Shown one piece after another: positions 12,504 to 32,485 of a stretch of DNA of 64,000 bases (position 1 is the first letter of the stretch; the number at the start of each line of letters is the position of its first letter). Made by a program: the position numbers and the translations under genes. Source of the stretch: an uncultured Trueperaceae bacterium (GTDB taxonomy: Bacteria > Deinococcota > Deinococci > Deinococcales > Trueperaceae); the NCBI GenBank assembly GCA_937873495.1, contig CALMXZ010000011.1, positions 470,808-534,807 of the forward strand, in the 5' to 3' direction. Below the pieces are notes generated by a model that made no database searches, was not told the DNA's origin, and worked only from the letters and a program-made list of their open reading frames with translations.

Positions 12504-12566
12504 GCCTCGTGCCGCTTATTGGCGTATCCTAGTCGGGCTTTGAACGAGCCAAGGGAGTACGCCACC

Positions 12567-14035: not shown

Positions 14036-14797
14036 ATGACCGCCTCGCCGCCGCCCGCTGCCGGCAGCCTGCTGCTGACGGGCGGGAGCGGCGTGCTCGG
14101 GCGAGAGCTGCGAGCCCTCCTGCCAGGCGTGATGGCGCCCGGCTCGCTCGACCTCGACGTTACCGATGAGCGCCGTGCCGCCCAGGTGATCGCGTCAGCA
14201 GCGCCGCGCGTCGTCGTGCACTGCGCCGCCTACACGGACGTCCGCGCGGCCGAGTCGGAGCGCGAGCGGTGCTGGCTCGTCAACGTGGTGGGCACGCGCA
14301 ACGTGGCGCGGGCGGCCAGGGAGGCCGGTGCGCGCTTGGTGCACGTCTCGACGGACTACGTGTTCTTCGGTGACCGGGGCGGCTACCGTGAGGACGACGT
14401 GCCCGGCCCGGTGCGCAACTACTACTCGCTCACGAAGCTCGTCGCCGAGGAGGTGGTGCGGGCCCAGCCCGACTCCCTCGTGGTGCGCACGAGCTTCAGG
14501 CCCCGCGCGTGGCCGTACCCGACAGCCTTCACCGACCTCTACACGTCTCAGGACTACGTCGACGTGATAGCCCCCCTGTTGGTCGAGCTGATCGCGCACC
14601 TCGACGAGGTAGAGGACGACACCCTCCACGTGGCCACCGAGCGCAAGAGCGTGTTCGACCTGGCCGCGCGCCGGGCGCCCGGGGTGCGGCGCGCGAGCAA
14701 GGCCGAGGCCGGCGTGCCGCTGCCGGACGACGTCTCACTCGACGTGGAACGCTTCGGACGCCTGCGCGCCGCGTGGGAACGGCAGACGACGCCATGA
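14036..14797 (+). CDS. rfbD: dTDP-4-dehydrorhamnose reductase-like (RmlD)
   Basis: The 253-aa SDR protein shows the nucleotide motif TGGSGVLG at about residues 16-23, VHCAAYTDV, STDYVFFG and the catalytic YSLTK. It would reduce dTDP-4-keto-L-rhamnose to dTDP-L-rhamnose, the last step of the pathway encoded by the next three genes. It is some 30-40 residues shorter than typical RmlD, mainly in the substrate-binding C-terminal part, so its activity deserves a check. It overlaps rfbC by ATGA. Confidence 0.8.
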   Translation: MTASPPPAAGSLLLTGGSGVLGRELRALLPGVMAPGSLDLDVTDERRAAQVIASAAPRVVVHCAAYTDVRAAESERERCWLVNVVGTRNVARAAREAGARLVHVSTDYVFFGDRGGYREDDVPGPVRNYYSLTKLVAEEVVRAQPDSLVVRTSFRPRAWPYPTAFTDLYTSQDYVDVIAPLLVELIAHLDEVEDDTLHVATERKSVFDLAARRAPGVRRASKAEAGVPLPDDVSLDVERFGRLRAAWERQTTP

Positions 14798-15348
14798 ACG
14801 TGACGTCCCTGGCCATCCCGGACGTCAAGCTGGTGACGCCGAGCGTGAAGCCGGACGCGCGGGGCTTCTTCCTCGAACGGTGGAGCGAGGCGGCGTCCGC
14901 CGCGGCCGGGTTGCCGCTGCGGTTCGCGCAGGACAACCACTCGCGCTCCACGCGCGGGGTGTTGCGCGGCCTCCACTTCCAGACCGGTCCGTACGCGCAG
15001 GGGAAGCTGATCGGGGTGGCGCGAGGGAAGATACTGGACGTGGCCGTCGACCTGCGGCGCGGCTCCGCCACCTTCGGCGGGTGGGTGAGTTCCGTCCTCG
15101 ACGATGTCGAACTGTGCCAGCTATGGGTGCCCGCCGGCTTCGCCCACGGGTTCCTCGTGCTCTCGGAGGTGGCAGACGTGCTGTACAAGACCGACCGACC
15201 GTACGCCCCGACCGCGGACGCGGGCGTGCGCTGGGACGACCCGACGCTCGGCGTCGACTGGGGGATCACCGACCCGCTCCTCTCGCCAAGGGACGCCCTG
15301 CTACCGCTCCTCGCCGACCTGGAAGCGTTCCCGGAGGGCCGACCATGA
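14794..15348 (+). CDS. rfbC: dTDP-4-dehydrorhamnose 3,5-epimerase (RmlC)
   Basis: The 184-aa cupin epimerises dTDP-4-keto-6-deoxyglucose at C3 and C5. The family signatures are present: DARGFFLERW near residues 21-30, RFAQDNHS, RGVLRGLHFQ with the catalytic His, and PAGFAHGFLVLS. ATG 14794 overlaps the rfbD stop, and the gene end overlaps rfbB, both as ATGA, giving tight coupling through the four genes. Confidence 0.93.
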   Translation: MNVTSLAIPDVKLVTPSVKPDARGFFLERWSEAASAAAGLPLRFAQDNHSRSTRGVLRGLHFQTGPYAQGKLIGVARGKILDVAVDLRRGSATFGGWVSSVLDDVELCQLWVPAGFAHGFLVLSEVADVLYKTDRPYAPTADAGVRWDDPTLGVDWGITDPLLSPRDALLPLLADLEAFPEGRP

Positions 15349-16427
15349 CCACGTACCTCGTGACTGGTGCGGCCGGCTTCATCGGCTCCGCCCTGGTGCG
15401 TCACCTCGTGCGGCGCGGCGGAGCCGGCGGCGTGCGCGTCGTGAGCGTCGACGCCTTCACGTACGCCGCCGACCCGGAGCGTCTGCGACCGGCGGGTGGT
15501 GAGCCGGCGCACCGGCTCGTGCGGCTCGACATCAACGACGTGGACGGCATGGCGTCCCTCCTCGCCGAGGAACGGCCGGCGGTCGTCTTCCACCTGGCCG
15601 CCGAGACGCACGTCGACCGCTCGATAGACGGGCCCGGCGCCTTCCTACGTGCCAACACCATGGGAACCTTCAACCTGCTCGAGGCCGTCAGGCGCTGCTG
15701 GCAGTCGCTGCCGGCGGCCGAGCGCGCCGCGTTTCGGCTGGTCAACGTGAGCACGGACGAGGTCTACGGCAGCCTCGGACCCACGGGAGCGTTCGACGAG
15801 GGCAGCCCGTACGACCCGCGCTCGCCGTACAGCGCCAGCAAGGCCGGCGCCGATCACTTCGCGAGCGCCTACTTCCACACCTTCGGCCTGCCCGTCATGA
15901 CGACGCACGCAGCCAACAACTACGGCCCGTTCCAGTTCCCGGAGAAGCTAGTGCCGCTGGCCGTCAACCGAGCTCTGGCAGGCCAGAGCGTGCCCATGTA
16001 CGGCGACGGCATGCAGGTCCGCGACTGGCTCCACGTCGACGACCACGCGCGCGGCCTCGTGGCCGTGGCGGAGCGCGGCCGACCGGGCGCCACCTACCTC
16101 ATGGGCGGGGGGCACGAGCTAACGAACCGAGCCATGCTGGAACAACTCCTCGGCTACCTCAACGACCTGGCGCCCGGCCGTGAGGACTACCGCCGCCTGA
16201 TCCAGAGCGTCCCCGACCGCCCCGGCCACGACAGACGCTACGCGGTCGACTCGCGCCGCGCCGAGAGCGAGCTCGGGTGGCGGAGGCTCGTGCCGTTCGA
16301 CGACGGCCTGCGTGACACGGTGAAGTGGAACATCGAGAACCGGCAGTGGGTGAGCTCCATCACGGAGCGTTACGACCTGAGGCGCCTGGGGCTCGGCACG
16401 AGCGTGACGGGGGCGCCGTCGGCGTGA
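15345..16427 (+). CDS. rfbB: dTDP-glucose 4,6-dehydratase (RmlB)
   Basis: The 360-aa extended SDR converts dTDP-glucose to dTDP-4-keto-6-deoxyglucose. It has TGAAGFIGS at 7-15, [19 protein letters not shown] (active-site Thr-Asp-Glu), YSASKAGAD with the catalytic Tyr and Lys, and [15 protein letters not shown]. Length and motifs are normal. It overlaps rfbC and rfbA by four bases each. Confidence 0.95.
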
Positions 16428-17296
16428 GCCGCCGCGGCATCGTGCTCGCCGGCGGTTCCGGCACGCGCCTCTACCCCGCCACGTTGGCGGTGAGCAAGCA
16501 GCTCCTGCCCGTGTACGACAAGCCGATGGTCTACTACCCCCTCACGACCCTGATGCTGGCCGGGATCCGCGAGGTCATGGTGATCTCGACTCCGCGCGAC
16601 CTACCGGCGTTCCGCGCGCTGCTCGGCACGGGCGATGAGTGGGGCATGCGCTTCGAGTTCGCCGTCCAAGAGCGGCCGGATGGCATCGCGCAGGCGCTCG
16701 TCATCGGTTCGGAGTTCCTGGCCGACCGCCCTGCCGCGCTCGTCCTGGGCGACAACCTCTTCCACGGGCACGGCCTGACCGACCTGCTGGCCGCCGCGGG
16801 CGCGCGGACCGACTCCGCCACCGTCTTCGGCTACCAGGTGACCGACCCGCAGCGCTACGGCGTGGTGGCGTTCGACGACCGGGGCCGAGCCACCAGCATC
16901 GAGGAGAAGCCGGCCAGACCGAGCAGCCGCTACGCGGTGACCGGCCTCTACTTCTATCCGGCCGGGGCGGCGGCCGAGGCGCGGCAACTGAGCCCGTCGC
17001 AGCGCGGCGAGCTCGAGATCACCGACCTGAACCTCTCTTACCTGCGCCAAGGGCGCCTGCGCGTCGAACTGCTCGGCCAGGGGATGGCGTGGCTGGACAC
17101 GGGCACGCACGAGAGCTACCTGCAGGCCTCCAACTACGTCGAGACGTTGGAGGCCAGGCAGGGTGTGAAGATCGGCTGCCCGGAGGAGGTCGCGCTCAGG
17201 AACGGCTGGATCGGCCCCGAGCAGGTGGCGCGCCTCGCCGAGGCCATGCGCGGGAGCGGCTACGGGCGGTACTTGCTCGGGTTGCTGGACGGCTAG
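16424..17296 (+). CDS. rfbA: Glucose-1-phosphate thymidylyltransferase (RmlA)
   Basis: The 290-aa enzyme makes dTDP-glucose from glucose-1-phosphate and dTTP, the entry step of the dTDP-rhamnose pathway. It carries the pyrophosphorylase signature [13 protein letters not shown] near the N-terminus, [27 protein letters not shown] and the C-terminal [16 protein letters not shown] 16424 overlaps the rfbB stop. The gene order rfbD-C-B-A is the reverse of the common rfbBDAC order, and the last gene ends nine bases from a convergent MerR gene. Confidence 0.95.
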
Positions 17297-19071: not shown

Positions 19072-19956
19072 CTACTCCCGCGCCACCCACTCCTCGCCGA
19101 CGGCCCGACCCTCCCGCCAGACGGCCCCCATCTCGTACTCGAACGCGGGTGGACGCCACAGGTTGAGCGCGCCGGACGGGTAGAACGTCAGCTCCCCGAA
19201 ATAGGTGCGGCCCCCAACGTCATAGAGGTCGACCCTGATGTACTCGTGACCCGCCCCCAGCTTCTCCGCCAGATCGACCATCTCCGCCAACTGCGTTGGC
19301 AACGGCGGCAAGAGCTCCGGCACGTCCCTGCCCCTATCGACCGCCAGCCGCCTGCCGTCCGGCATGAAGAACGCCTGCTTGTGCCGCGAGAACCGCGTGT
19401 AGTCGACCTCGAACAGGCGCACCTTGCCCGAGAACACGAAGAACTTGTAGTCGACCGGCACCAGGCCGTCCTCGCCGACGAGCAGCTCCTCCACGACGAG
19501 CCTGCGCGGGACCGCCCGGTAGGGAGCCTCCCGATAGAGCCGTGAGTAGTCGGTGGCGAGCCAGCGCCGCGCGGTGGCACGCACCTCGTCCCAGTCGACG
19601 CTCGCCTTGTCCTGGACGATCAGGTTCATGCCCGAGCCGTGGGTGCCCTTGAGGACGAAGGCGTCCGGCAGTGCCGCCACGTCCAACTCGTCGACGTCCC
19701 CGTACACGCCGATCAGCGGGATCAGATGCTCCGCCCCGATGGTCCGTGCCACGACCTCGCGTACGCCGTACTTGTCCGAGAGCTCCCCCAGCTCGCGGTA
19801 GCGAGGAAGGTCGAGCACCTTCTTCCTTATCAGCAGCTCGTGGAAGGTCTTCGGGTCTCGGTGATTGCGGGGGCGTCCGAACCGCCACACGTACTGCATG
19901 TCCGTGTGCCACCGGTCCGGCAGCAAGGCCTTCAAGCTGTCGACGAGCTTCCCCAT
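19072..19956 (-). CDS. ATP-grasp protein, TupA-like (teichuronopeptide/polysaccharide synthesis)
   Basis: The 294-aa protein matches the ATPgrasp_TupA family: FHELLIRKK, LSDKYGVREVV, LPDAFVLKGTHGSGMNLIV (ATP-binding), then VPVDYKFFVFSGKVRLFEVD and IRVDLYDVGGRTYFGELTFYPSGAL near the C-terminus. TupA family members are ATP-grasp ligases or related transferases in capsule-like loci, and the exact chemistry is not set by sequence. It ends the long minus-strand polysaccharide run, and a TATCAT box at 19968-19973, eleven bases before the ATG, may give it its own promoter. A second member lies at 21240-22109. Confidence 0.85.
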   Translation of the reverse strand: MGKLVDSLKALLPDRWHTDMQYVWRFGRPRNHRDPKTFHELLIRKKVLDLPRYRELGELSDKYGVREVVARTIGAEHLIPLIGVYGDVDELDVAALPDAFVLKGTHGSGMNLIVQDKASVDWDEVRATARRWLATDYSRLYREAPYRAVPRRLVVEELLVGEDGLVPVDYKFFVFSGKVRLFEVDYTRFSRHKQAFFMPDGRRLAVDRGRDVPELLPPLPTQLAEMVDLAEKLGAGHEYIRVDLYDVGGRTYFGELTFYPSGALNLWRPPAFEYEMGAVWREGRAVGEEWVARE

Positions 19957-19980: not shown

Positions 19981-21243
19981 CTAGCGCGGGGCGGGCGCGT
20001 CCAGCCGCCGCTTGAGCCGACCGATGACCATCACGATGAGCATGACGTTGAAGGCCATGCCCGTGAACGCCATCCCGGCCACCGCGCCGACCGGCCCGGC
20101 GAGCATCCCGCCGCCGACGAGCGCCCCTACGCGCGCCGCCGTGTAGACGGTCTCGTAGACGGCGTGCCAACGCTGGATCCTCAGGAGTGGCACCAGGCTA
20201 ACGGCCGGGATGTTCATCAGCCCTGCCATCAGGTTCAGACCCAGGTACCGCGCGAACTCGCCGCCGACCCGCCACTGCTCGCCCAAGGCCCACGCGAACG
20301 CCTGGGGGCCGAAGACCGCGAGGAGCGCGGCCGGTACGGCCGCCAGCGCCGCCAGCGCCAGCGTTGTCCTGACCGCGAACGCCAGGACCTCGGGTCGATC
20401 GATCCTCCGGCTCAGGTGCGGGTAGAGGACCTGCCGCAACGACTGGCCAAGCAGGTTGGACGGCGCGGTGACCACGCGTCTCGCGAGGAGGTACTGTCCG
20501 GCGGCGCCGGCGCCGAAAGCGGCCGTGAGGACCACCGCGGGCAGACCCTGCCCGATCGCGTTGAGCAGCGACTGCGGAGCGCCGTAGACGATGAAGTCGG
20601 CGTACTCCCTCAGCACCTTGCCCGCCCTCGCGAAGCTCACGGGTGAGCGCAGGTCGAGGCGGCCCGCGCGGGCAGACCTCCCCAGCAAGGCGAGGGTCCC
20701 GACGACCTGCCCGGCGACCTGGCCGGCGAGCATCCCGGTGGCCCCGAGGCGCGCCGCGCCGAGCCCGATCTGGCCCGCGGCGCCGATCGCGCCGCGCACC
20801 ACCTGAGCGCTCGCCAGGTGCCCGAACTTGCCGACCCGGGTCGACCAGTAGTTGAAGACTTGGAACGTCCCGAGCGAACCGACGTAGAACGGGAGGATGC
20901 CGAGGAGCGGCGCGAGCGCCGGCGCGCCGAGGGCGCGCGCGGCAGCCTCGCCCGCGATCAGGACGGCCAGCGCGGTGCCGCTCACCACCCCGGCTATGAC
21001 GAGCAGCGCGGCTACCATCACCTGCTGCGCGTCCTCGTCGGTCTTGGGCACGACGACCGCCAGCTCGAGGCGCAGCGCCGCCACGACCCCGATCACGGTG
21101 GCCACCGAGAGGAAGACACCGACCACGCCGAAGTCGTCCGGCGTGTACAGGCGGCTGAGCAGCGGGGCGGCGACGAAGCCGATGGCCTGACCGACGGCCG
21201 TGCCCGTCATCAGCTTGGCTACGTCTCGCAGGCCGCGTCTCAC
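19981..21243 (-). CDS. Oligosaccharide flippase (Wzx/PST family)
   Basis: The 420-aa protein has about a dozen hydrophobic segments and the typical N-terminus VAKLMTGTAVGQAIGFVAAPLLSRLYTPDDFGVVGVFLSVATVIG of polysaccharide transporters that flip undecaprenyl-linked repeat units. GTG 21243 overlaps the preceding TupA-like gene as GTGA, which decides the start against a much longer open frame. It is flanked on both sides by TupA-like ATP-grasp genes. Confidence 0.88.
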   Translation of the reverse strand: MRRGLRDVAKLMTGTAVGQAIGFVAAPLLSRLYTPDDFGVVGVFLSVATVIGVVAALRLELAVVVPKTDEDAQQVMVAALLVIAGVVSGTALAVLIAGEAAARALGAPALAPLLGILPFYVGSLGTFQVFNYWSTRVGKFGHLASAQVVRGAIGAAGQIGLGAARLGATGMLAGQVAGQVVGTLALLGRSARAGRLDLRSPVSFARAGKVLREYADFIVYGAPQSLLNAIGQGLPAVVLTAAFGAGAAGQYLLARRVVTAPSNLLGQSLRQVLYPHLSRRIDRPEVLAFAVRTTLALAALAAVPAALLAVFGPQAFAWALGEQWRVGGEFARYLGLNLMAGLMNIPAVSLVPLLRIQRWHAVYETVYTAARVGALVGGGMLAGPVGAVAGMAFTGMAFNVMLIVMVIGRLKRRLDAPAPR

Positions 21244-22109
21244 GGTGCCAGGAACGCCTCGGCCATGGGCCTCCCCGCGCCCCACACCTCGCCGAGCTCC
21301 AGGTCGAACGCCCGCGGCTCGAAGCGCACCACCCCCCCTTCGGGATAGTGCGTGATCTCCCCGACGACCACGCGGTCGGGGAGGCTGTAGAAGTCCACTC
21401 GAGCGAAGGCGAACGGTTCGGCCAACTTGGCGGCCGCCCAGAGCATCTCCTCGAGCCGCGCCGGCGCGCTCACGGGCGTGCCGAGTAGCGGGTACTCGCA
21501 GACGACGGCCAGCGCGCGCCACTCCGGCGTGTACAGGCTCCGGCGGTGGTCCGTGAACCGGTCCCGGTCGACCTGGATGAGGCGCGCGACCCCGCCGAAC
21601 GTGAACACCTTGTAGTCGTCGATGGGGCTGCCGGGCAGCAGGTTCTCCTCGAACACCACGCGCGGCGTCAGGTCGCGGTAGGCCCACTCGCGGCGCTTCC
21701 AGTAGTACGAGCGCGCCAACCAGTCCGCAGCCAGGGTCACGGCCTCGGCTTGCGTCAGGTCGGAACCGGTCACGATGCGGTTCCACCCGCTCCCGTGCGT
21801 GCCCTTCATCACGTAGTCGGAGGGCAACCGCGTCACGTCGACGTCCGCCGCCGACTCGACCACCGCGTAGAGCCGCGGCAGGTAGCCATCTCCCAGTCTC
21901 TCCTCCACGTACGACCTCAGCGTGAACTTGTCAGCGGTCACCGCCAGCAGCGGGTCGTGGTCGTATACCCGCTTCGCCAGCAGCCGCTCGGTGAAGGTCC
22001 GCGGGGCGCCGAGATCCGGCAGGTAGCCCAGCTTGGCCATACAGTGCAGCCTAGCGAACGCTGCCGGGGGCAGCACCCGCGCCGCGGCCGTCAGGAGCTT
22101 CCGTCTCAC
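21240..22109 (-). CDS. ATP-grasp protein, TupA-like (second copy)
   Basis: The 289-aa protein shares the TupA-family pattern with the gene at 19072: FTERLLAKRVYDHDP, VTADKFTLRSYVEERLG, LPSDYVMKGTHGSGWNRIV, IDDYKVFTFGGVARLIQVDRDRF and ARVDFYSLPDRVVVGEITHYPEGG. The copies are clearly diverged, so this is not a recent duplication. It starts with GTG overlapping the WecG-like stop, and its own stop overlaps the flippase start. It probably adds or activates a polysaccharide substituent; this is inference from context. Confidence 0.85.
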   Translation of the reverse strand: MRRKLLTAAARVLPPAAFARLHCMAKLGYLPDLGAPRTFTERLLAKRVYDHDPLLAVTADKFTLRSYVEERLGDGYLPRLYAVVESAADVDVTRLPSDYVMKGTHGSGWNRIVTGSDLTQAEAVTLAADWLARSYYWKRREWAYRDLTPRVVFEENLLPGSPIDDYKVFTFGGVARLIQVDRDRFTDHRRSLYTPEWRALAVVCEYPLLGTPVSAPARLEEMLWAAAKLAEPFAFARVDFYSLPDRVVVGEITHYPEGGVVRFEPRAFDLELGEVWGAGRPMAEAFLAP

Positions 22110-22945
22110 GTCGCGCCGCGACCGTCCTCGGCCCGGTCGAACCGGAAGTGGGCTTCTCCCAACCGTCTGTTACGCAGGTCTGTCAGCAACCGTGGGAGGA
22201 GCCTCAACGGCTCGACCAGGTAGCGCCGCCATAGCCGGCGGGGCTCTGCCGCCAGCCGGAAGAGCCACTCGAGCCCAAGGCTGGAGAGCCAGCGAGGCGC
22301 CATCGGGATGACCCCGGCGACGTAGTCGAAGGCCGCTCCGCACGTGCCGACGACCGGCGCGGCGACCCGGTCGAGGTAGCGCTGCAAGAACTCCTCCTGC
22401 CGCGGCATGCCCATGCCGATGAGCACGATGTCGGCGCCCTCGCTCGCTACGCGCTCGAGGCGCCTGGTGACCTCGCCGTCGGCGTCGTCGAGGGCGAAGT
22501 AGCCGTCTTCCGTGAGGAGCTGCAGCCCCGCATGCTCGGCCCTGAGCTTGGTGGCCGCGAGCTCGGCCACCCCGGGCCGACCGGCTATGACCATCACCTT
22601 CCAACCGCGCTCGCCGGCGGCGGCCATCAGGACTGGCATCAGGTCCATGAAGCCGGCCCTCTGCGCGCGCGTGACGGGCAGACCGAGGAGCCTGGCTATC
22701 CATACGAGCGGCATACCGTCTATCCGGACCACGTCGGCGCGCGCCTGCAGCTCCATGAGGGCGGGGCTGCCTGGCGCCAGGTAAGCGCTGTGCATGTTCT
22801 GGCTGACGAGGAGGCGCCGGCTGCGGCTCTTCACGCCCTCCTCCACGACCCCGAGCCACTGCTCGCGCGTCACGGGGGAGATCCTCACGCCGAGGACCAT
22901 GTAATCGGTGCGCGCCTGCCGGCTCCCGCTAGACCCGGTACTCAC
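22106..22945 (-). CDS. WecG/TagA/CpsF family glycosyltransferase (GT26)
   Basis: The 279-aa protein shows the GT26 pattern: LLVSQNMHSAYLA, VRIDGMPLVWIARLLG, GWKVMVIAGRPGVAELAA, VLIGMGMPRQEEFLQRYL and the C-terminal ALRLLPRLL-type amphipathic tail (EPRRLWRRYLVEPLRLLPRL). Members add N-acetylmannosamine or its uronic acid to lipid-linked acceptors at the inner membrane face. GTG 22945 overlaps the preceding stop as GTGA. Confidence 0.88.
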   Translation of the reverse strand: MSTGSSGSRQARTDYMVLGVRISPVTREQWLGVVEEGVKSRSRRLLVSQNMHSAYLAPGSPALMELQARADVVRIDGMPLVWIARLLGLPVTRAQRAGFMDLMPVLMAAAGERGWKVMVIAGRPGVAELAATKLRAEHAGLQLLTEDGYFALDDADGEVTRRLERVASEGADIVLIGMGMPRQEEFLQRYLDRVAAPVVGTCGAAFDYVAGVIPMAPRWLSSLGLEWLFRLAAEPRRLWRRYLVEPLRLLPRLLTDLRNRRLGEAHFRFDRAEDGRGAT

Positions 22946-23976
22946 TGTGCCTTCGCTCCTTCGGCGCCCGGGCGCACGCCGGACTGGACGTCCCACGAGG
23001 CCAACGCCAGCGCCAAGGGAGCGTACACGACCGGGTACAGGAGCGCCAGGTCAACCAGGCCTTGCACCGCGAGGGCCGTGGCGCCGACGACCAGCGCCGT
23101 CCCGGCGAGTGAGCCGCCCCTCGGTTGGCGGACCAGCAGCCGCTTGACGCCAAGCGCGGCGAGCACGAGCAAGGCGACCAGCCCGACGGCGCCGCCGTCG
23201 ATGAGGACCTCGAGCGGCACGCTGTGTGGATGGACGGCCGCCTCCAGCGGCAGCGAGGGCTCGACGACGGGCGCCCAGCGCGTCCAAGCACCGTCTCCAA
23301 GGCCCGTCACGGGCGAGAGGGCCGCGATCCCGATGGCCGTCATGAAGATCGGCCCGCGCTCGAACGACCCGAGCACCGAATCGACGTCGGGACGCAGGCG
23401 GGCGATCGCCACCAACCCGGTGCAGAGGGCCGCTACCACGGCGACGAGCCAGAGGCGGGTCCACCTCCCCGAAGCGCCTCTCCCCCGGAGCAGGGCGACG
23501 ATGACACCGAGGAGGAGCCCTAACAGCAGTGACCGACTGCCGGCGGCCAGCAGGAGGAACCCGCTCACGGCACTCCCGACCAGCAGCGCGGCGCGCCAGG
23601 CGGCGCCCGTCCGACCGCCGGAGTCGACCGACCACGCGCATGCGACGGCCAGGAGCGTCCAGAGGGACACGGTGACGGCCGCGGCCGTGTTCGCGTGCGG
23701 TAGGAACCCGGCGGCCCGCCCCAGGTCGCCGGCGACGGCGACGCCGACGAGTTGGGCCCCCAGGCCGACCGCCGCCGCGACGGCGAGCCACGGGGTCAAC
23801 CACAGGGTCAGGCGCGCGGACGCCCGCACCGACCCGGCTCGACCCGCCAAGGCCGTCCGGGCCATCACGCAGAAGAGGACGGCCCCGCCGAGGAGCCAGG
23901 TACGACCGTGCACCGCGGACACCACCAGGACCCCGAGGAGCGCGACGAGCGCGACGTCCCGCAACGCCCTGCTCAC
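22942..23976 (-). CDS. O-antigen polymerase/ligase-like membrane protein (Wzy_C family)
   Basis: The 344-aa protein has about ten membrane segments and a large loop in its second half with SPVTGLGDGAWTRWAPV followed by HPHSVPLEVLIDGGAVGLVALL. The G-x-G and HPHS pattern is that of the O-antigen ligase/polymerase superfamily (H-N/S in the catalytic loop). It overlaps both neighbours by four bases. Whether it polymerises repeats or ligates chains cannot be told from sequence. Confidence 0.78.
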   Translation of the reverse strand: MSRALRDVALVALLGVLVVSAVHGRTWLLGGAVLFCVMARTALAGRAGSVRASARLTLWLTPWLAVAAAVGLGAQLVGVAVAGDLGRAAGFLPHANTAAAVTVSLWTLLAVACAWSVDSGGRTGAAWRAALLVGSAVSGFLLLAAGSRSLLLGLLLGVIVALLRGRGASGRWTRLWLVAVVAALCTGLVAIARLRPDVDSVLGSFERGPIFMTAIGIAALSPVTGLGDGAWTRWAPVVEPSLPLEAAVHPHSVPLEVLIDGGAVGLVALLVLAALGVKRLLVRQPRGGSLAGTALVVGATALAVQGLVDLALLYPVVYAPLALALASWDVQSGVRPGAEGAKAQ

Positions 23977-24470
23977 CGCGGCGTCACCTCCAGCCTCAGG
24001 TTGCGGTCCTCTGACCCGCTCGCCAAGTCGTTCGTGAACGAGACGAGCGCCCCGGCCCCGGCGGGAAGGAGCAGAGCGACGCCCTCGGGGCCGACCAGGC
24101 CGTACCAGGCGGAGGTCTCGGCGGCGGCCAGGGTGTAGGTCACGCTGACCGCCGGACCGACCCCCCTCACGGAGCTACCCGACAGCAGCATGGTCCTGTC
24201 GGACCCGCAGCCAGGCACCGCCACCAACGCGTTGGTGAAGGCTTCGACGCGCGCGCCGTCCGCCGCGCCGGCACCGGCGACCAGGCTCGGCGCCCCGCAA
24301 GCGCCGCTCGCGCCGGGCGCCGGTGACGGGACGACCGCCGCCGGAGCGGCCTCCCGCACGCCACCGGTGGCGAGACCGCCAGCCACCACGCAGACGCACA
24401 CGGCGATCAGCACGAGCCGGGGCCCTACGCCCGATGCCCGCCCCGAGCCGCGCCCGACGCTAGTCGCCAT
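23973..24470 (-). CDS. Small anchored extracytoplasmic protein, unknown
   Basis: I do not recognise this 165-aa protein. It has one N-terminal hydrophobic segment (RLVLIAVCVCVVAGGLATGG) after a short Arg/Gly-rich start, an Ala/Pro linker, two Cys residues (CGAPS and VPGCGS), and a C-terminal half that looks like beta strands (AVSVTYTLAAAETSAWYGLVG). ATG 24470 is chosen because it overlaps the preceding stop by only 11 nt. It lies between a Wzy-like gene and a second small anchored protein, so a role in export or assembly is suggested by position alone. Confidence 0.6.
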   Translation of the reverse strand: MATSVGRGSGRASGVGPRLVLIAVCVCVVAGGLATGGVREAAPAAVVPSPAPGASGACGAPSLVAGAGAADGARVEAFTNALVAVPGCGSDRTMLLSGSSVRGVGPAVSVTYTLAAAETSAWYGLVGPEGVALLLPAGAGALVSFTNDLASGSEDRNLRLEVTPR

Positions 24471-24879
24471 ACCGAACCCGTCGGGAGACCACCTGAACGG
24501 TGCGGACGCCACCGAGTGCGTCAGGGCGCAGCACGAGCATGTCGAGGTCGTACTCGCCCGGCGCGAGCGCCCGCGTGGCCGTCACGACGCCTACGCTCGA
24601 GCGCTCGGTGACCGCCTTGCGGGCACCCAGGATGCAAGCCCGCTCGAGGTCGCAGATGCGCAGTTGGACCGAGGCCGTCAGCCCGGAGGGCGCGGCCGGG
24701 ACCTCGAAGGCGAACCAGGCGGCGAACGGCGCGCCATCCGGCACCCCCGGGGGGATGAACGCCCACGCCAACCGAGGAGCCGGGCCGGAACCCGCGATGC
24801 GCGGCGCGAGCCGGAGCGCGAGAACCAGCACCGCGACGAGGAGCAGGAACACGGTCGCCGCCGCTACGTGGCCCTTCAC
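24460..24879 (-). CDS. Small single-pass extracytoplasmic protein, unknown
   Basis: This 139-aa protein has one N-terminal membrane segment (HVAAATVFLLLVAVLVLALRL) and an outward domain of about 105 residues with regular beta-like alternation (APFAAWFAFEVPAAPSGLTA, then ALAPGEYDLDMLVLRPDALGG) and two Cys residues (ICDLERACIL), perhaps an Ig-like fold. GTG 24879 overlaps the GT4 stop as GTGA. No known family came to mind. It is embedded in the glycosyltransferase run with no spacing, so it is probably part of the same machinery. Confidence 0.6.
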   Translation of the reverse strand: MKGHVAAATVFLLLVAVLVLALRLAPRIAGSGPAPRLAWAFIPPGVPDGAPFAAWFAFEVPAAPSGLTASVQLRICDLERACILGARKAVTERSSVGVVTATRALAPGEYDLDMLVLRPDALGGVRTVQVVSRRVRYGD

Positions 24880-25997
24880 CGCGTCTCCAACTCCTCGAGC
24901 ACCTTGTCGACGTAACGCCCGTACATCGTCTCCTGATCGAACTCGGCCCGCTGCCGGGCGCGGGCGCGGGCGCCCATGGCCTCGGCAGCCGCGGGGTCGG
25001 CGGCGACGGACGCCAACGCCGCCGCCCACGCGTGAGGGTCGTGGCCGGGCAGGAGCAGGCCGACGGCGCCGTCGGGGGCGTCCATGGGGTCGCGGTTCGC
25101 GGGGATGTCGCTCACGAGGACGGGAGCGCCGCGCGCCATAGCCTCGAGCACGGCCAGGCTGAGGCCCTCGTGGAGCGAAGGCTGGACGAAGGCGTCGCAA
25201 GCCGAGAGCCACCGGCCCACCAGCTCACGCGGCACCCGGCCGAGGAACCGGACGCGCTCGGCGAGTCCGAGCGCGCTCGCTCCCGCCTCCAACCCCGCCC
25301 GCCCCTCGCCGTCACCGAGTATCACCAGCGACCAGTCGGGCGCCAGCGCGAGGGCCTCGAACAGCACGCCGTAGTTCTTCCCGGCGGTCAACCGGCCGAC
25401 GGCGACGGCGACCAGGCCGCCAGACGACGGTCCGAGGCCCGCCCCCGAAGCTCCCGACCCGCTCCTCCGCGGCTCGTAGCTTGGCTCGACGCCGTTGGCG
25501 ACGACCGTGACGTGGCGCATGTAGGCCGGACCGTTCCGCTCGTAGCTCGCGGCCACCGACGGCGCGCAAGCGACGATCCCGCTGTACCAGCCGAGCCGGG
25601 CCACCACCGCGTCGAACCAGAGGACCCCTCGGCCGACGCGGTCGCTGGCCGTGTGCAAGGTCGAGACGACCTTCGACCGGCCGAGGAACCTGGCGGCGAG
25701 GGCCGCGAGCGCACCGAGGAAAGGCGTGAACGTGACGATCACGGCCGGACGCTCCTGCCGCAACCGCCGCAGCAGTCGGCCGAAGTCGCGCGAGGCGAGG
25801 AACGGCCGGGTCCAACGGGCTCCGCGAGCGTCCTCGTGCTCCCGCAGATCGCGCAGATAGACGGCCGAAGCATCGACGCCACGTGCCGCGAGCCGGCCTT
25901 CGAGCCCGTCGATCAAGACCTTGGTCCCCCCGACCACGTCGCTCCGTTGCAGGAGCCAGACGCGCGCCCGGGAGCCCCCGTCGGAAGCGGCACTCAT
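24876..25997 (-). CDS. Glycosyltransferase family 4
   Basis: The 373-aa GT-B enzyme has the family 4 C-terminal donor-binding pattern: VAVGRLTAGKNYGVLFEAL, LVILGDGEGRAGLEA, VRFLGRVPRELVGRWLSACDAFVQPSLHEGLSLAVLEAMARGAPVLVSD (EGLSLAVLE is the E-x7-E element). The N-terminal half begins VWLLQRSDVVGGTKVLIDGLEG. ATG 25997 overlaps the preceding gene stop as ATGA. It transfers a sugar to the growing lipid-linked unit; donor unknown. Confidence 0.9.
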   Translation of the reverse strand: MSAASDGGSRARVWLLQRSDVVGGTKVLIDGLEGRLAARGVDASAVYLRDLREHEDARGARWTRPFLASRDFGRLLRRLRQERPAVIVTFTPFLGALAALAARFLGRSKVVSTLHTASDRVGRGVLWFDAVVARLGWYSGIVACAPSVAASYERNGPAYMRHVTVVANGVEPSYEPRRSGSGASGAGLGPSSGGLVAVAVGRLTAGKNYGVLFEALALAPDWSLVILGDGEGRAGLEAGASALGLAERVRFLGRVPRELVGRWLSACDAFVQPSLHEGLSLAVLEAMARGAPVLVSDIPANRDPMDAPDGAVGLLLPGHDPHAWAAALASVAADPAAAEAMGARARARQRAEFDQETMYGRYVDKVLEELETR

Positions 25998-27337
25998 GAG
26001 CGCGCCGGGCCCTCCCGACCCGCGGTCCGCGCGGCCATGGCCGCCCCCGCGGCGCCCGATCTGAGCGCGCCGACCGGCAGGTACGCCTGCGCGCCGGCCA
26101 CACACTGCACGAAGAGGAGGAGCAAGAACACGTTGTTCGGCCCGAGCAGGACGGAGTCGGACATGGAGACGAGCAGCGCGGCGACGGCCACCACGACGCC
26201 GACTTCGTGATAGCGGGAAGCGGACCGCCCGGCCATCAGCCACCGTCGCAGGGGCAGGAAGACCAGCGCGGCGACGAGCAGGAGGCCGACCACTCCCAGG
26301 TCGAGACCGACGTCGAGCCAGCTGTTATGGGCATGGCCAACGCGCCACGCGAGGGTCTGGCTGATCGCCTCTCCGCCGGGGCTCGCCCAGAAGGCCCGGT
26401 ACCCGTGACCGAGCACTGGCTGCTCCTCGGCCTTGCCGAGCACGAGCGACCAGAGGGTGGTCCGCCCCGTCACGGACACGTCGCGGCCCACCAACGCGAA
26501 CAGGCGATCAGGAGCGAGGCTCACCAGCATGCCCGCCACGGTCACGCCGACGAGCACCAGCGCCACGAAAGCGGCGGCCAAGGCGGGTCGGCCGCGGACC
26601 ATGCGGACGACCAGCGCCGTGCCGACGGCGCCGGCGACCGCGACCAGCCCGGTTGCGGACTGGGCCTGCACGATCAGCGCGACGGCCAGCACCGTCATCA
26701 TCACCCAGAACAGCCGCCCACCGGCCCGGCGCGCGTGGATGGCGGCGACTGCGAACAGCCCGCCCGCCAACGCCATCTCTCGGCCGAGAAGGTTCTTGTG
26801 CAGGTACACGCCCTTCCAGCGACCGACGTGAGCGCCGACCTGATGAACGCCGAGGTCGGGCACCACCACCGCGACGACCACGGACAATAGGGCCGCGGCG
26901 GCCAACAGGACCGTCACGAGCTTGACGGTCCGCTTGTAGCCCAACGCCCCCACCAGGTAGGCGGCCACCAGGACGGCGCCGGCCAGGGCCAGCGAGCGCC
27001 TGGCCGTCAACTCCTGGTTCACGGACCAGAGGCTCGACGCCGCGGCGAGAACCGCGAAGGCGATGGGCAGCCAGGCAGCCTTGAGGAGCGGCACGACCGG
27101 CCGCCGCCAGAAGCGCAGGCAGAACAGGACGCCGACCGCCGCGAGGAGCGCGGCCATGGCCACTTGCAGGCCCGGCAGACCGGCGTCCAGGTCGACCGTC
27201 CCGGCGCCGCCGGACGCCAGGAGCGGCGGCAGGACGGCGCCGGACAGGAGGAACACGTACGCGAACACCACGGCCTGCCCGAGAGCGGCGCGTGGGCGGA
27301 AACGCAGCTTCAGCGCGGTAGCAGCGCCGCTAGCCAT
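25994..27337 (-). CDS. O-antigen ligase/polymerase family membrane protein
   Basis: The 447-aa protein has about twelve membrane segments and the Wzy_C signature: VLGHGYRAFWASPGGEAI, then VGHAHNSWLDVGLDLGVVGLLLV (the HNSWLD-type catalytic loop). That is stronger family evidence than for the protein at 22942. ATG 27337 lies 28 nt inside the preceding GT4 gene, with no SD; a slightly later start is possible. It is one of three proteins of this superfamily in the locus. Confidence 0.85.
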   Translation of the reverse strand: MASGAATALKLRFRPRAALGQAVVFAYVFLLSGAVLPPLLASGGAGTVDLDAGLPGLQVAMAALLAAVGVLFCLRFWRRPVVPLLKAAWLPIAFAVLAAASSLWSVNQELTARRSLALAGAVLVAAYLVGALGYKRTVKLVTVLLAAAALLSVVVAVVVPDLGVHQVGAHVGRWKGVYLHKNLLGREMALAGGLFAVAAIHARRAGGRLFWVMMTVLAVALIVQAQSATGLVAVAGAVGTALVVRMVRGRPALAAAFVALVLVGVTVAGMLVSLAPDRLFALVGRDVSVTGRTTLWSLVLGKAEEQPVLGHGYRAFWASPGGEAISQTLAWRVGHAHNSWLDVGLDLGVVGLLLVAALVFLPLRRWLMAGRSASRYHEVGVVVAVAALLVSMSDSVLLGPNNVFLLLLFVQCVAGAQAYLPVGALRSGAAGAAMAARTAGREGPARS

Positions 27338-28416
27338 CGGGGACCAACGCTCTCGATGTGGAAGGCGCGGCTGCGCTCGATCAGCCGCTGGGCGTCGGGA
27401 GCGCGCGCGAGCGCCAGCCGCAGGGCCGCCGCCAACGCGGCCACGTCGCCGACGGGGACCAGCTCGCCGAACTGGCCGTCCGCCAGGATCTCGCGTGGAC
27501 CGGAACGGCAGTCGGTCGCCACCACCGGCACCCCCAGCGCCAACGCCTCGACCAGCACGTTCGGGGAGCCCTCCCAGCGGGAAGACAGCACCAGCAGGTC
27601 GGCGCTCCTCAACCATCTGAACGGGTTGGTCTCGTCCGTCACGATCTTCACGCGCCCCGCCAGGCCGAGCGAGTCGACCAGCCCACGCACTTGCGCCTCC
27701 AGCGGGCCGGAGCCGATCAGCACCAGGCCGGTCCTCGGTCCCGCCTCGAGACTCGCGAAGGCCCGCAAGAGCGTCGCGTGGTCCTTCTGGGCCGACAGCC
27801 GAGCTACGCACACGATCCGCTTCTCGAGGCCGGCGTACCAGTCGTCGTTCAGCTCGGCGCGCGACCGCTCGAGCAGACCGTCGTCGAGGCTGGCGTTGGG
27901 GAGGGCGACGACCCGCGCCGGATCGACCCCGTAGGCCTGCTCCACCCCGGCCTTGACCCCTTCGGAGACCGCGATCACCAGGTCGGCGCGGCGGTAGGCG
28001 GCTGCGAGCAGGCGCCGAGTGACGCCGCCGAAGCGCCGGGAGTAGGGCGCCTCGTGGCGCGGGTCGTTCGCCTCGCGCACCACCACCCTCGGCCTGGCCG
28101 GCAGCGAACGCGCGACCGCCACCGAGAGGGCGTTCACCTGGGGCAGCGTTGAGAGGAGGCTGTCCGGCCTCAACCGAGCCAGCAGTCGGTAGAAGGGGAT
28201 GACGGCGCTCCGGATCCTCCCGGCGGCCAGGTCGTGCAGCTGCACGCCGTCGCCGAGTTCGGCCGCCAGCGGCCCGGCCCCGACGAGCGTGATCAGACCC
28301 GTGTCGAGCCCTTGGGCAGCCAGGTAGTTCGCCAGACGCACGACCACGCGTTCGGCTCCGCCGACTCCGAGGTCGCGCAGCACGAGCACTACCCTCCGCT
28401 CCTCGGCACCACCCAT
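27310..28416 (-). CDS. Glycosyltransferase family 4 (first gene of the minus-strand run)
   Basis: The 368-aa GT4 enzyme shows VLVLRDLGVGGAERVVVRLANYL at the N-terminus (the G-G-A-E acceptor loop), CVARLSAQKDHATLLRAFASL, LVLIGSGPLEAQV, and LRSADLLVLSSRWEGSPNVLVEALALGVPVVATD. It opens the minus-strand polysaccharide run, which continues to 19981 without a spacer. A TAGGAT box ten bases before ATG 28416 may drive all of it. The divergent gene encodes the polymerase/PHPT fusion. Confidence 0.9.
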   Translation of the reverse strand: MGGAEERRVVLVLRDLGVGGAERVVVRLANYLAAQGLDTGLITLVGAGPLAAELGDGVQLHDLAAGRIRSAVIPFYRLLARLRPDSLLSTLPQVNALSVAVARSLPARPRVVVREANDPRHEAPYSRRFGGVTRRLLAAAYRRADLVIAVSEGVKAGVEQAYGVDPARVVALPNASLDDGLLERSRAELNDDWYAGLEKRIVCVARLSAQKDHATLLRAFASLEAGPRTGLVLIGSGPLEAQVRGLVDSLGLAGRVKIVTDETNPFRWLRSADLLVLSSRWEGSPNVLVEALALGVPVVATDCRSGPREILADGQFGELVPVGDVAALAAALRLALARAPDAQRLIERSRAFHIESVGPRWLAALLPR

Positions 28417-28493: not shown

Positions 28494-31400
28494 ATGGCCG
28501 CCTTGCATAGCACCAGCCGGATGCAGCGGGGCGCGGCGTTCCTGGCCGGCGTGAGCTTCGCGGCGGTGCCGGCGGTCGGACCGTTCATCGCCATCGCCGC
28601 GATCTTCGCAGGTCGCTTGAAGGTGCAGCGCGCGGACGCCTGGTGGTGGCTCGCCAGCCTCCTCCTCGGGCTCCCGTACATGCTCACCGGCCATCCGCTG
28701 GACGGCGCTCTCGCCGGCACCCAGGTGCTGGCCGTGTGGCTGATCTTCCGCTCCGCCACCGAGTTCAGGCGCAACGCGCGCAGCGTGACGGTGTCGGAGG
28801 ACATCGGCGCCGGCCTCATCGTCGGCCTCGTCATCACACTGGTGTTCGGGCTCGGGCAGATCGGCGCGTTCCGTTTCGACCTGGCCCAGACCTTCCTCGA
28901 CGCCATAACTTGGAACGTCCATCCCGCCATCTTCGGCCACGCCATCCTGGTGCTCTCCGCGCTCCTCGCCATCGTGGTCCCGTCCCCGCAGCTGCGGGTC
29001 ATCTCGCTCGGCATCGGCGCCGTCGGGGTGATCGTGGCGGGGGCCGGCGAGGCCGTCTGGGCCTGGCTGGCCATCGCCATCGGCCTACAGTTCGTCGTCA
29101 GGCGCGGCACGACCCTCACGCGTGGTGCGGAGCGGCTTCTCATCCTGGTCATGCTGCTCTTCGCCGTCGGGGTGCCCGCCAGGTTAGGGCTTGGCACGAC
29201 CGGCCTGCTCACCGACTTCGCTCCCCAGGCGGAAGCCGTCAACGAGTTCCGGGGCACCGAGTCGGCGAAGGGCGACTGGTGGGTGCCGCTGGGAGTGACG
29301 TTCACTACGCGCGCCGCTGCTGTCGCGGGGACACCGAGGACGGCGTTCGACGTCCGCAAGACCTCCACGGAATCCTGGTCGCGCTTGCAGCAGGTGGTCA
29401 CGTTGCTGCCCGGTGAGACCTACACGCTCAGCGCGGCCATCCAGGCCCCGGAAGGGGCTCGTCCGGGGTTCGACGGCTGGGGTCGGGAGGCCGTGGGAGA
29501 GACGGCGGCCAACCTCGGCACCGTGCTGGAAGACGAGGTCCATCGCGCCACGACTACGGGGCCGATCACCGTCATCTCCTCGAGCGCCGTGGAGTTGGAC
29601 GAGGGGTGGGTCCGCACCGCCGTCACCTTCCGCTTCGAGGGCGAGCGGCCGTTGACTTGGTACGTAGGCGTCGTACCGGACCGCTCGAGCAAGACGGGCA
29701 TCACGAGCTCGTTCGCCGAGCTGCAGCTCGTCGGTTCGTACGTCCTGCTGCCGTACCGACCCGGACCGGCCGCGCGGGGGGTAACGGACCTGCGCACCTC
29801 GCGCCTACCCATCTGGCGCGACGCCCTCGAGGCGGTGAGCGCCAAGCCGCTCCTCGGTTGGGGGCCGGGCGGGTTCCCGGTGGCCGTCACGACCCTCCAC
29901 CCCGACGAGACGCTGCTCCGACCGATCGCCGCGCATGCCCACAACTCGTTCCTGGCCATCTGGGTCGATCGCGGCCTCGTCGGCCTGATGGGCCTCGTCG
30001 GCCTCTTCGCGCTGCTCGCGCTGCGCGCCGTTCAGCAGCGCGATCAACCCGCGGCTCTCGTTCTCCTCGGCGTCCTGATCCTCAACCTCTTCGACGCTAC
30101 CCTCCTGTCTGGTGCCGTCATCTACCCGCTGGCCGCCGTGCTCGGCTGGCGCGCCGTCGGCCGGCGCGAGGTGGCGGAGGCCGAGACCGGGGTCGGCAGC
30201 GCGACGGCCGTAAGGCTCGGGCTGGCGCTCGCCGACGCGGTGGCCGGAGCTGCCGCCCTCTCGCTCGGCATGTACGTCGCCGGGCGCTTCGACCCCGACC
30301 TGTCGCTCGCGGTGGGTTGGCGCCTGCCCCTCCTCTACGCCACGCTGGCGTGGCCGGCGGTCGCCGCCGCTGCCGGGCTCTATCCCGGTTACGGGCTCCC
30401 GTCCTATCGGCAGCTGAGCCGTTCCGTGCGGGCGGCGTTCGCGGCCGCCGTCGCCGTCGGGTTCATCGCCTTGCTCCTGCCGGACGTGTTCGGGCTCACC
30501 GCGCCCGTGTTCTTCGTCGCCGTGCCGGCCGCCACCGCGCTGGCGCCAGTGTTCCGCTTCACGGCGCAGAAGGCGCTCCAACGTCTGAGGTTGTGGGGAA
30601 GGCCGGTCGTGATCATCGGCACCGAACCGGCAGCCGCGCAGGTGACGCGTCACCTCCTCGCTCATCCGGACATAGGCCTGCACCCCATGGCGGTCTTCGG
30701 CGATCCGCACGGGCGTCCCGGCGCGGCGCTGCCCGTCACCGGCACGCTCGCGCAGGCCTGGGAGTACATCGAAGCGCACGACGTCCGCCATGCGATCATC
30801 GGCCCGGCCGCCGCCAACTCGGCCGCCTTCGACCAGGTCCTCCTCCAATCCGGCAACCGCCTCAAGTACGTGCAGTTCCTGCCCGATCTACGTGGGCTAC
30901 CCACCAACTCGGTGATCGCCACGCCTCTCGGCACCACCCTCGGGCTGGAGGTGCGCAATCAGCTCGCGTCCGGCACGAACCGCGCCGTGAAGCGGGTCAT
31001 CGACTTCCTCGGCTCGAGCGTGCTGCTGGCCATCCTCGGGCTGCCCCTGCTGGTCATCGCGGCCCTGATACGCCTCGATTCGCGCGGGCCGGCCCTCTAC
31101 CTCTCGCCGCGCATCGGTCGTTACGGCAAGACCTTCGCCTGCGTCAAGTTCCGCACCATGCACCTCGACGCGGACGAGCGCCTCCAGACGCTCATGAGGG
31201 AGCATCCCGAGCTGCGCGAGGAGTACGAGCACTTCCACAAGCTCGAGAACGATCCCCGCGTCACCCGCGTCGGTCGCGTCCTGCGGCGCGTGTCCCTCGA
31301 CGAGCTGCCCCAGCTCCTCAACGTCGTGCGCGGCCAGATGAGCCTCGTGGGCCCGCGACCGTACATGGAGCGCGAGCGCAGGGAGCTGGGCGGCGAGCAG

Positions 31401-31583
31401 GACATCATCTTCCTCGCTCGCCCCGGCATGACGGGCTACTGGCAGACGGAGGCGCGCAACGACGTCAGCTTCGCGGAGCGCCAGGCCATGGAGGCGCACT
31501 ACGTGCGCAACTGGTCGGTATGGTGGGACATCGACATCCTCCTGCGCACGCCGGCGGCCATGCTCCATAGAGCGGGGAAGTGA
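28494..31583 (+). CDS. Fusion of O-antigen polymerase/ligase and polyprenyl-phosphate sugar-1-phosphate transferase
   Basis: This 1029-aa protein joins two functions usually on separate genes. Residues 1-560 form a Wzy_C-type membrane protein (about ten segments) with PLLGWGPGGFP near 455 and AHAHNSFLAIWVDRGLVGLMGL near 482. Between its membrane parts, about 290-425, is an inserted extracytoplasmic beta-rich domain (WSRLQQVVTLLPGETYTLSAAI and GWVRTAVTFRFEG) resembling a carbohydrate-binding jelly roll. Residues 570-690 are four or so membrane segments, about 700-810 a CoA-binding-like Rossmann domain (VVIIGTEPAAAQVTRHLLA), and about 827-1029 a bacterial sugar transferase domain (VKFRTM, DELPQLLNVVRGQMSLVGPRP, RPGMTGYWQ). 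It may both start and extend or ligate the polymer. No stop or frameshift breaks the junction. Confidence 0.9.
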   Translation: MAALHSTSRMQRGAAFLAGVSFAAVPAVGPFIAIAAIFAGRLKVQRADAWWWLASLLLGLPYMLTGHPLDGALAGTQVLAVWLIFRSATEFRRNARSVTVSEDIGAGLIVGLVITLVFGLGQIGAFRFDLAQTFLDAITWNVHPAIFGHAILVLSALLAIVVPSPQLRVISLGIGAVGVIVAGAGEAVWAWLAIAIGLQFVVRRGTTLTRGAERLLILVMLLFAVGVPARLGLGTTGLLTDFAPQAEAVNEFRGTESAKGDWWVPLGVTFTTRAAAVAGTPRTAFDVRKTSTESWSRLQQVVTLLPGETYTLSAAIQAPEGARPGFDGWGREAVGETAANLGTVLEDEVHRATTTGPITVISSSAVELDEGWVRTAVTFRFEGERPLTWYVGVVPDRSSKTGITSSFAELQLVGSYVLLPYRPGPAARGVTDLRTSRLPIWRDALEAVSAKPLLGWGPGGFPVAVTTLHPDETLLRPIAAHAHNSFLAIWVDRGLVGLMGLVGLFALLALRAVQQRDQPAALVLLGVLILNLFDATLLSGAVIYPLAAVLGWRAVGRREVAEAETGVGSATAVRLGLALADAVAGAAALSLGMYVAGRFDPDLSLAVGWRLPLLYATLAWPAVAAAAGLYPGYGLPSYRQLSRSVRAAFAAAVAVGFIALLLPDVFGLTAPVFFVAVPAATALAPVFRFTAQKALQRLRLWGRPVVIIGTEPAAAQVTRHLLAHPDIGLHPMAVFGDPHGRPGAALPVTGTLAQAWEYIEAHDVRHAIIGPAAANSAAFDQVLLQSGNRLKYVQFLPDLRGLPTNSVIATPLGTTLGLEVRNQLASGTNRAVKRVIDFLGSSVLLAILGLPLLVIAALIRLDSRGPALYLSPRIGRYGKTFACVKFRTMHLDADERLQTLMREHPELREEYEHFHKLENDPRVTRVGRVLRRVSLDELPQLLNVVRGQMSLVGPRPYMERERRELGGEQDIIFLARPGMTGYWQTEARNDVSFAERQAMEAHYVRNWSVWWDIDILLRTPAAMLHRAGK

Positions 31584-31654: not shown

Positions 31655-32485
31655 GTGCCTGCCAAGCCAGTAGCCAACGGTGCCCTACGCGCGTTCGGCA
31701 TCGTCTCGGCTGCGACCAAGCCGCTCTACTGGTTGTACGAGCGGCGCCTCGCGCGCGCCGTGAAGACGGCCGGACACCTCCCGCGCCACATCGGCATCAT
31801 CATGGACGGCAACCGCCGCTTCGCGAAGGCGGCCGGCATCGACGTCAAGGCCGGGCACGACTACGGGGCGAGCAAGGCTCGAGAGGTGCTCGACTGGTGC
31901 CTTGAGCTCGGCATCCCGCACGTGACCCTGTGGGGGTTCAGCACCGAGAACCGCTCCCGTTCCGCCGAGGAGGTCGGGCATCTGCACCGCCTCTTCGCGG
32001 AGCAGGCGCGCAGCCTCCTGAACGACGAGCGCCTGCACGCGAACCGGGTGAAGGTCCGCATCATCGGCGACATCGCCGACTTCCCCGCCGAGGCCAAGGC
32101 GGCCCTCGCCGCCATGGAGGATGCCACCCGCGACTACGACGGCATGCACCTCAACGTCGCCCTCGGTTACGGGGGGCGCGAGGAGATCGTCGATGCGGTC
32201 AAGCGCCTGGCCGCCGAGCGGGCGGCCGAGGGCGCCACGCTGAGCGAGCTGGCGTCGAGCCTGACGGCCGACCAGATCACCCGCCACCTCTACACGGCGG
32301 GCCTGCCCGACCCTGACTTCGTGATCCGCACCTCCGGCGAGGTCCGCCTGTCCGGCTTCCTCCTGTGGCAGACCGCGTACAGCGAGTTCTACTTCTGCGA
32401 CGCCAACTGGCCGGAGTTCCGCCGGGTCGACTTCCTGCGCGCCGTGAGGTCGTTCCAGGCGCGCGAGCGCCGGTTCGGGAAGTAA
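31655..32485 (+). CDS. uppS: Undecaprenyl diphosphate synthase-type cis-prenyltransferase
   Basis: The 276-aa enzyme extends farnesyl diphosphate with isopentenyl units to the C55 carrier used for peptidoglycan and surface polysaccharide. It has HIGIIMDGNRRFAK with the catalytic Asp, LWGFSTENRSRS, LNVALGYGGREEIVDAVK, and the C-terminal PDFVIRTSGEVRLSGFLLWQTAYSEFYF. About 30 residues precede the family start. Its place behind the polymer-initiating fusion fits lipid-carrier supply, although it is also a housekeeping gene. Confidence 0.93.
   Translation: MPAKPVANGALRAFGIVSAATKPLYWLYERRLARAVKTAGHLPRHIGIIMDGNRRFAKAAGIDVKAGHDYGASKAREVLDWCLELGIPHVTLWGFSTENRSRSAEEVGHLHRLFAEQARSLLNDERLHANRVKVRIIGDIADFPAEAKAALAAMEDATRDYDGMHLNVALGYGGREEIVDAVKRLAAERAAEGATLSELASSLTADQITRHLYTAGLPDPDFVIRTSGEVRLSGFLLWQTAYSEFYFCDANWPEFRRVDFLRAVRSFQARERRFGK

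Follow-up and report, generated by a model that had tools for sequence, protein, structure and literature searches.

A single gene in the 64,000-nucleotide stretch of DNA analysed here (the window) encodes two polysaccharide enzymes in one chain: a WaaL/Wzy-type (GT-C) enzyme with a predicted 12 helices is followed by a short linker and then by a complete WbaP-type phosphoglycosyl transferase (PGT). This order of parts is virtually certain. The joined gene is genuine, arose long ago and has been conserved in the Trueperaceae, a family of relatives of Deinococcus.

Domain organisation of the fused protein

As the original prediction had it, the frame is unbroken, running from an ATG start over 1029 codons with zero internal stops (28494–31583, forward strand; Table 1). 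The proposed joining of a Wzy_C-type half to a full PHPT (PGT) was borne out by a Pfam domain search, which gave Wzy_C, Bac_transf and a CoA_binding_3 match close to its cut-off. Wzy_C covers residues 431–501 (E 6.6e-11; 42.6 bits, above the cut-off of 31.7) and Bac_transf residues 833–1024 (E 2.2e-57). CoA_binding_3 (PF13727), at 639–768, scores 24.4 bits in the window copy, just below the 25-bit cut-off, and 36 bits in the fused copy of another genome, G016. Over 577–1028 the NCBIfam WbaP model gives 401.7 bits, the cut-off being 403, so that the protein falls on the border of the WbaP subfamily; solved WbaP structures align over about 668–1028 (E 4e-61). The catalytic dyad of the PGT, D936–E937, is invariant in the alignment of fused copies, and the HNS loop expected near residue 482 of the first half is found as H483-N484-S485.

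Used as a profile (A2), the first half matches the solved WaaL of Cupriavidus metallidurans (7TPG; E 4.6e-8) and the oligosaccharyltransferase 9RMK (E 3.5e-7). The possibility that this half is merely an extended membrane part of the PHPT is ruled out by these two matches and by the usual four WbaP helices, which come after it. Alignment-averaged hydropathy and positively charged loops fit nine helices before the loop and three after it, and a low-confidence model agrees. Such an arrangement would put the insert and the His loop outside and both ends of the Wzy half inside; since the four WbaP helices come next in the chain, the Rossmann-like and PGT domains would stay inside. The full-length predicted structure has a mean pLDDT of 34.6, its input being only two near-identical sequences (window and L004).

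Table 1. The fused gene, its parts and neighbouring genes, in window positions
Feature	Position	Strand	Basis
Fused Wzy/WaaL-type GT-C enzyme and WbaP-type large monotopic phosphoglycosyl transferase, 1029 aa	28494–31583	+	Open frame, profiles, homologues
First nine predicted TM helices of Wzy/WaaL half (N-terminal hairpin counted as two), residues 1–239	28494–29210	+	Alignment-averaged hydropathy; low-confidence model with same helices
Codon 185, Gly; site of GSR-motif Arg (WaaL 7TPG R191, equated with E. coli WaaL R215)	29046–29048	+	Alignment to 7TPG
Beta-rich domain inserted in the extracytoplasmic loop, resembling CBM_4_9 in homologues, residues 240–432	29211–29789	+	
Wzy_C catalytic loop and last three helices of Wzy/WaaL half, residues 433–556	29790–30161	+	
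Codon 437, Arg; equivalent of WaaL 7TPG R265 / E. coli R288	29802–29804	+	Alignment
Codons 481–483, His-Ala-His, each His unchanged across the fused copies; H483 = 7TPG H313 / E. coli H338	29934–29942	+	
Linker of near-constant length, residues 557–573	30162–30212	+	
Four-helix membrane part of WbaP half, residues 574–690 (helices at 577–686)	30213–30563	+	Hydropathy, NCBIfam
CoA_binding_3-type (PF13727) Rossmann-like domain, residues 691–825	30564–30968	+	Pfam, WbaP structures
Catalytic PGT domain (Bac_transf), residues 826–1029	30969–31580	+	Pfam, NCBIfam, WbaP structures
Asp-Glu catalytic dyad of PGT, codons 936–937, invariant	31299–31304	+	Alignment
Undecaprenyl diphosphate synthase (UppS), 71 bases downstream of fusion	31655–32485	+	
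GT4 glycosyltransferase, divergent neighbour	27310–28416	-	
Separate Wzy_C protein, 447 aa	25994–27337	-	
GT4 glycosyltransferase	24876–25997	-	
Second separate Wzy_C protein, 344 aa, GSR motif present	22942–23976	-	
WecG/TagA-family glycosyltransferase	22106–22900	-	
Wzx-type flippase	19981–21210	-	
dTDP-rhamnose genes	14036–17296	+	Pfam (RmlD); gene order and homologues (RmlC, B, A, inferred)
Wzz-type chain-length regulator	12540–14027	+	

Distribution and origin of the fusion

The same fusion spans the junction, stop-free, in 20 of the 39 genomes of the family (14 genera, 35–91% identity), and a candidate in one further family genome is broken off at a contig edge. None of the 72 other Deinococcota genomes searched carries it; a stand-alone PGT match, mostly of about 480–550 residues, was obtained in 42 of these. 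A contig scan gave one relative, at 90%, from a Deinococcota MAG, in line with the gene lying in a Deinococcota genome. The locus is variable within the family, since three of the six genomes of the window's own genus lack the fusion, and only smaller PGTs turned up there in the same search. Relatives of the whole protein or of its Wzy half were not found in viral contigs, nor did the Wzy half match plasmids or phages.

The window's assembly consists of 17 contigs, which leaves room for two genes having been wrongly joined, or annotation could have merged two proteins made via an internal start. The probability of such an artefact is negligible: independent assemblies carry the same fusion, including the finished single-contig genome of the Truepera radiovictrix type strain RQ-24T (G017), which refutes an assembly error, and the window copy has no Shine-Dalgarno-like internal start at the junction. 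Among the fused copies compared (14 in alignment A1 and six more, all from independent assemblies), a stretch of 29–32 residues separates Gly-Trp 551, which closes the Wzy half, from Asp581 in the WbaP half in every case; this constancy likewise rules out a chance joining.

In the tree of the PGT half all fused copies fall into one group (100/99) with one stand-alone PGT, that of G021, nested inside it, and separation of the fused copies from this protein was rejected (AU p 7e-5). The fused copies also form one group in the tree of the Wzy half (100/99), together with P0015, a long-branched separate protein of G022; monophyly of the fused Wzy halves was not rejected (p 0.43). The trees of both halves fit one origin of the fusion, the plain reading being that a single fusion would have occurred in the family's ancestor, with later release of the PGT in G021.

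The stand-alone WbaP of G021 (L036:8898–10358), nested as it is in the fused clade, appears to be a PGT released from the fusion. P0015, the separate Wzy of G022 (L035:14217–15812), has the same insert, is close to the fused gene and sits on its long branch beside the fused copies.

All segments of the protein are under similar purifying selection. Between the window copy and its congeners, dN/dS is 0.09–0.11 in the Wzy helices, 0.11–0.12 in the insert and 0.12 in the PGT. With values alike throughout, decay of one half is rejected.

Conserved residues of the Wzy/WaaL half

In E. coli WaaL, R215, R288 and H338 are important, and they are conserved in PglL (PMC3643930). R191, R265 and H313 of 7TPG were equated with these three by motif and spacing, and codon 185, R437 and H483 of the window protein align with them respectively. 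H481, H483 and R493 are invariant in all copies having that region, and R437 is kept in all fused copies except that of G016.

The GSR-motif Arg, equivalent to E. coli R215, is absent from the window copy, which has Gly185, as do two congeners. Nine of the 18 fused copies on the tree have Arg at this position and the others Gly, His, Gln or Leu, amounting to about four changes in the fused clade on either tree. Half of the fused copies retain all three WaaL residues, and the GSR Arg is kept in 11 of the 12 separate Wzy proteins examined. With the R215-equivalent Arg missing, the half is a Wzy_C/WaaL homologue whose activity as ligase or polymerase is putative.

The fused copy of G016 (L031:7923–10406) has lost the whole insert as well as Arg437, while the His loop and the fusion are kept. 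It represents a natural test of the need for the insert.

The extracytoplasmic insert

The insert is placed in the main extracytoplasmic loop, downstream of the codon 185 position and ahead of Arg437. A beta-rich domain of about 130 residues had been predicted in this loop; its location holds, but it is larger, with about 180 residues (about 240–432, with a conserved core at about 250–425). There are 25 invariant columns among 11 copies. CBM_4_9 (PF02018) is matched at E<0.05 by four of the 11 homologous inserts, in one case above the cut-off (27.3 against 25.9 bits), and Laminin_G_3 by two. The window's own insert has no Pfam match, CBM_4_9 included, so that the earlier label 'lectin-like' is weakly supported, through the homologues and not through the window copy. 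Carbohydrate binding may be regarded as a fair lead, one suggested by the homologous domains. The beta-sandwich known as CBM_4_9 would here be placed in the loop of a membrane enzyme. An AlphaFold2 prediction from the same two near-identical sequences (window and L004) gave a mean pLDDT of 43.9 for the insert.

Large extracytoplasmic segments are also present in separate Wzy proteins of the Trueperaceae and of other Deinococcota families (L038:7842–9416, L040:10479–12089, L032:6512–8389 and L033:5784–7715). These lie ahead of the GSR motif, a place different from that of the insert in the fused protein, and have no Pfam match.

Proposed function and alternatives

The setting is a Wzx/Wzy-type polysaccharide locus. 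Within it the C-terminal WbaP-type Lg-PGT half would transfer the first sugar-1-phosphate onto undecaprenyl phosphate at the inner face of the membrane, a site of action which, judged from family and residues, is near certain. The N-terminal GT-C half, of the WaaL/Wzy/PglL group, would face outward with its His loop and CBM-like insert and act on undecaprenyl-PP-linked glycan as a second transferase, either a ligase or the polymerase of a special step. The insert would hold the glycan acceptor or the chain. In the fusion, the enzyme releasing the carrier would stay close to the one loading it again; that the fusion fixes the ratio and place of both enzymes can reasonably be inferred. Inference likewise underlies both activities, the roles in ligation and in glycan binding, and the coupling through the carrier. 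Taken as a whole, this proposal of a two-sided single-chain enzyme, with a PGT start inside, an outer transferase, a glycan-holding insert and carrier coupling, falls just short of probable.

The proposal is favoured by the profile matches, the invariant PGT dyad and H481/H483, R437 present in every fused copy but one, the topology and the similar dN/dS of the segments, as well as by the restriction of the fusion to the family (20/39 genomes against 0/72 outside). It is also favoured by two features of the locus. In each of the 13 loci with enough sequence to test, another gene for a Wzy_C protein is found no more than about 10 kb from the fusion, so that the fused half is one enzyme of this type among others. 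In addition, UppS is a neighbour of the fusion, adjacent or close by, in seven genomes (the window and six others). Against the proposal stand the R215-equivalent Arg, which is missing from the window copy, was replaced some four times among the fused proteins and is retained by nearly all separate Wzy proteins examined (11/12), and the G016 copy, still fused after losing the insert and R437.

The original prediction cast the first half as the polymerase or ligase of the pathway. Its kinship to Wzy/WaaL-type enzymes stands, but the role is qualified by the separate Wzy in 13 of 13 testable loci and by the absence of the R215-equivalent Arg in the window. That the fused half alone polymerises is improbable; it more likely serves as a second transferase (ligase) or as a scaffold. 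The constant presence of a separate Wzy polymerase in the same locus, from which a second transferase is the most likely role, is the sole basis for preferring ligase over polymerase.

A two-faced enzyme can also be imagined, in which release of the carrier by an outer ligase or polymerase would be coupled to its reloading by the inner PGT, while a built-in glycan-binding domain would sense the chain. This version is rather doubtful. If it were true, initiation and termination of one polysaccharide would be united in a single chain.

Alternatively, in the window's lineage the Wzy/WaaL half may no longer be a (full) transferase, serving instead as a scaffold that tethers the PGT to Wzx/Wzy/Wzz, or as a sensor of the polymer outside that feeds back on initiation. 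Repeated loss of the R215-equivalent Arg (Gly185 in the window; His, Gln or Leu elsewhere), the G016 copy without insert and R437, and the other Wzy proteins that are always present would all suit such a role, as would the released WbaP of G021, where the PGT hence works without a Wzy half. However, a mere scaffold would not need invariant H481, H483 and R493, the Wzy helices are constrained as much as the PGT, and half of the fused copies have all three WaaL residues. On balance this alternative is possible but not likely.

The fused half could, finally, be the main repeat-unit polymerase (Wzy), with the separate Wzy_C proteins acting as ligases or on other glycans. Membership of the same Pfam family and a locus shared with Wzx and Wzz would agree with this, but a canonical separate Wzy accompanies the fusion in 13 of 13 testable loci, and in outgroup families the Wzy adjoining a stand-alone WbaP falls, with modest support, among the separate Wzy proteins and not among the fused ones. 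Such a role is unlikely.

Undecaprenyl phosphate is scarce and shared, and cells balance its loading by the PGT with its release by polymerase and ligase. In the fusion, which occurs naturally, is conserved and is present in a cultured type strain, an enzyme that loads the carrier shares one chain with an enzyme of releasing type, so that carrier coupling can be tested directly. The fusion also offers a fixed-ratio anchor for modelling the Wzx/Wzy machine.

Relation to known systems

PGTs fused to other pathway enzymes (bifunctional monoPGTs, Bi-PGT) are an accepted class (PMC10942596). Like these, the window protein combines a PGT and another glycan-pathway enzyme in one frame and one chain. 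With WbaP and other Lg-PGTs (e.g. Salmonella WbaP, PDB 8T53 and 9S7S) it shares the four-helix part, PF13727 and the PGT domain, in the same order, but it has in front of them an extra WaaL/Wzy-type enzyme of a predicted 12 helices and an extracytoplasmic insert. WbaP has been purified in polymer nanoparticles (PMC10942596). With the O-antigen ligase WaaL (7TPG) and the wider Wzy_C family (Wzy, PglL, TfpM) it has in common the equivalents of R265 and H313 and, by prediction, 12 helices; it differs from 7TPG in the insert in the main periplasmic loop, in Gly for R191 and in the PGT fused on.

Common partners in the PGT-fusion survey of O'Toole et al. 2021 are reportedly sugar-modifying enzymes, glycosyltransferases, regulators and some polytopic PGTs. 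A WaaL/Wzy enzyme working at the other face of the membrane is not known to be one of these partners. A Wzy/WaaL–PGT fusion had been put forward as lacking a described example, and a targeted full-text literature search found no description of one; the survey lay outside this search and may list one. PGT fusions are thus known as a kind, and a WaaL/Wzy partner appears to be undescribed in the searchable literature.

Other genes of the locus

Two TupA-like ATP-grasp proteins (19072–19956 and 21240–22040) flank the flippase gene of the window. UppS, which follows the fusion here, was not seen next to the PGT gene in the stand-alone WbaP loci examined. Directly before the gene for the 344-aa Wzy lie two small proteins, each with a hydrophobic segment at its N terminus (23973–24413 and 24460–24879, reverse strand), neither of which has a Pfam match. 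The first overlaps the Wzy gene by 4 bases; considered as a secreted relative of the insert, it showed no relation by hhalign. The two small proteins might be detached periplasmic partners of the 344-aa Wzy.
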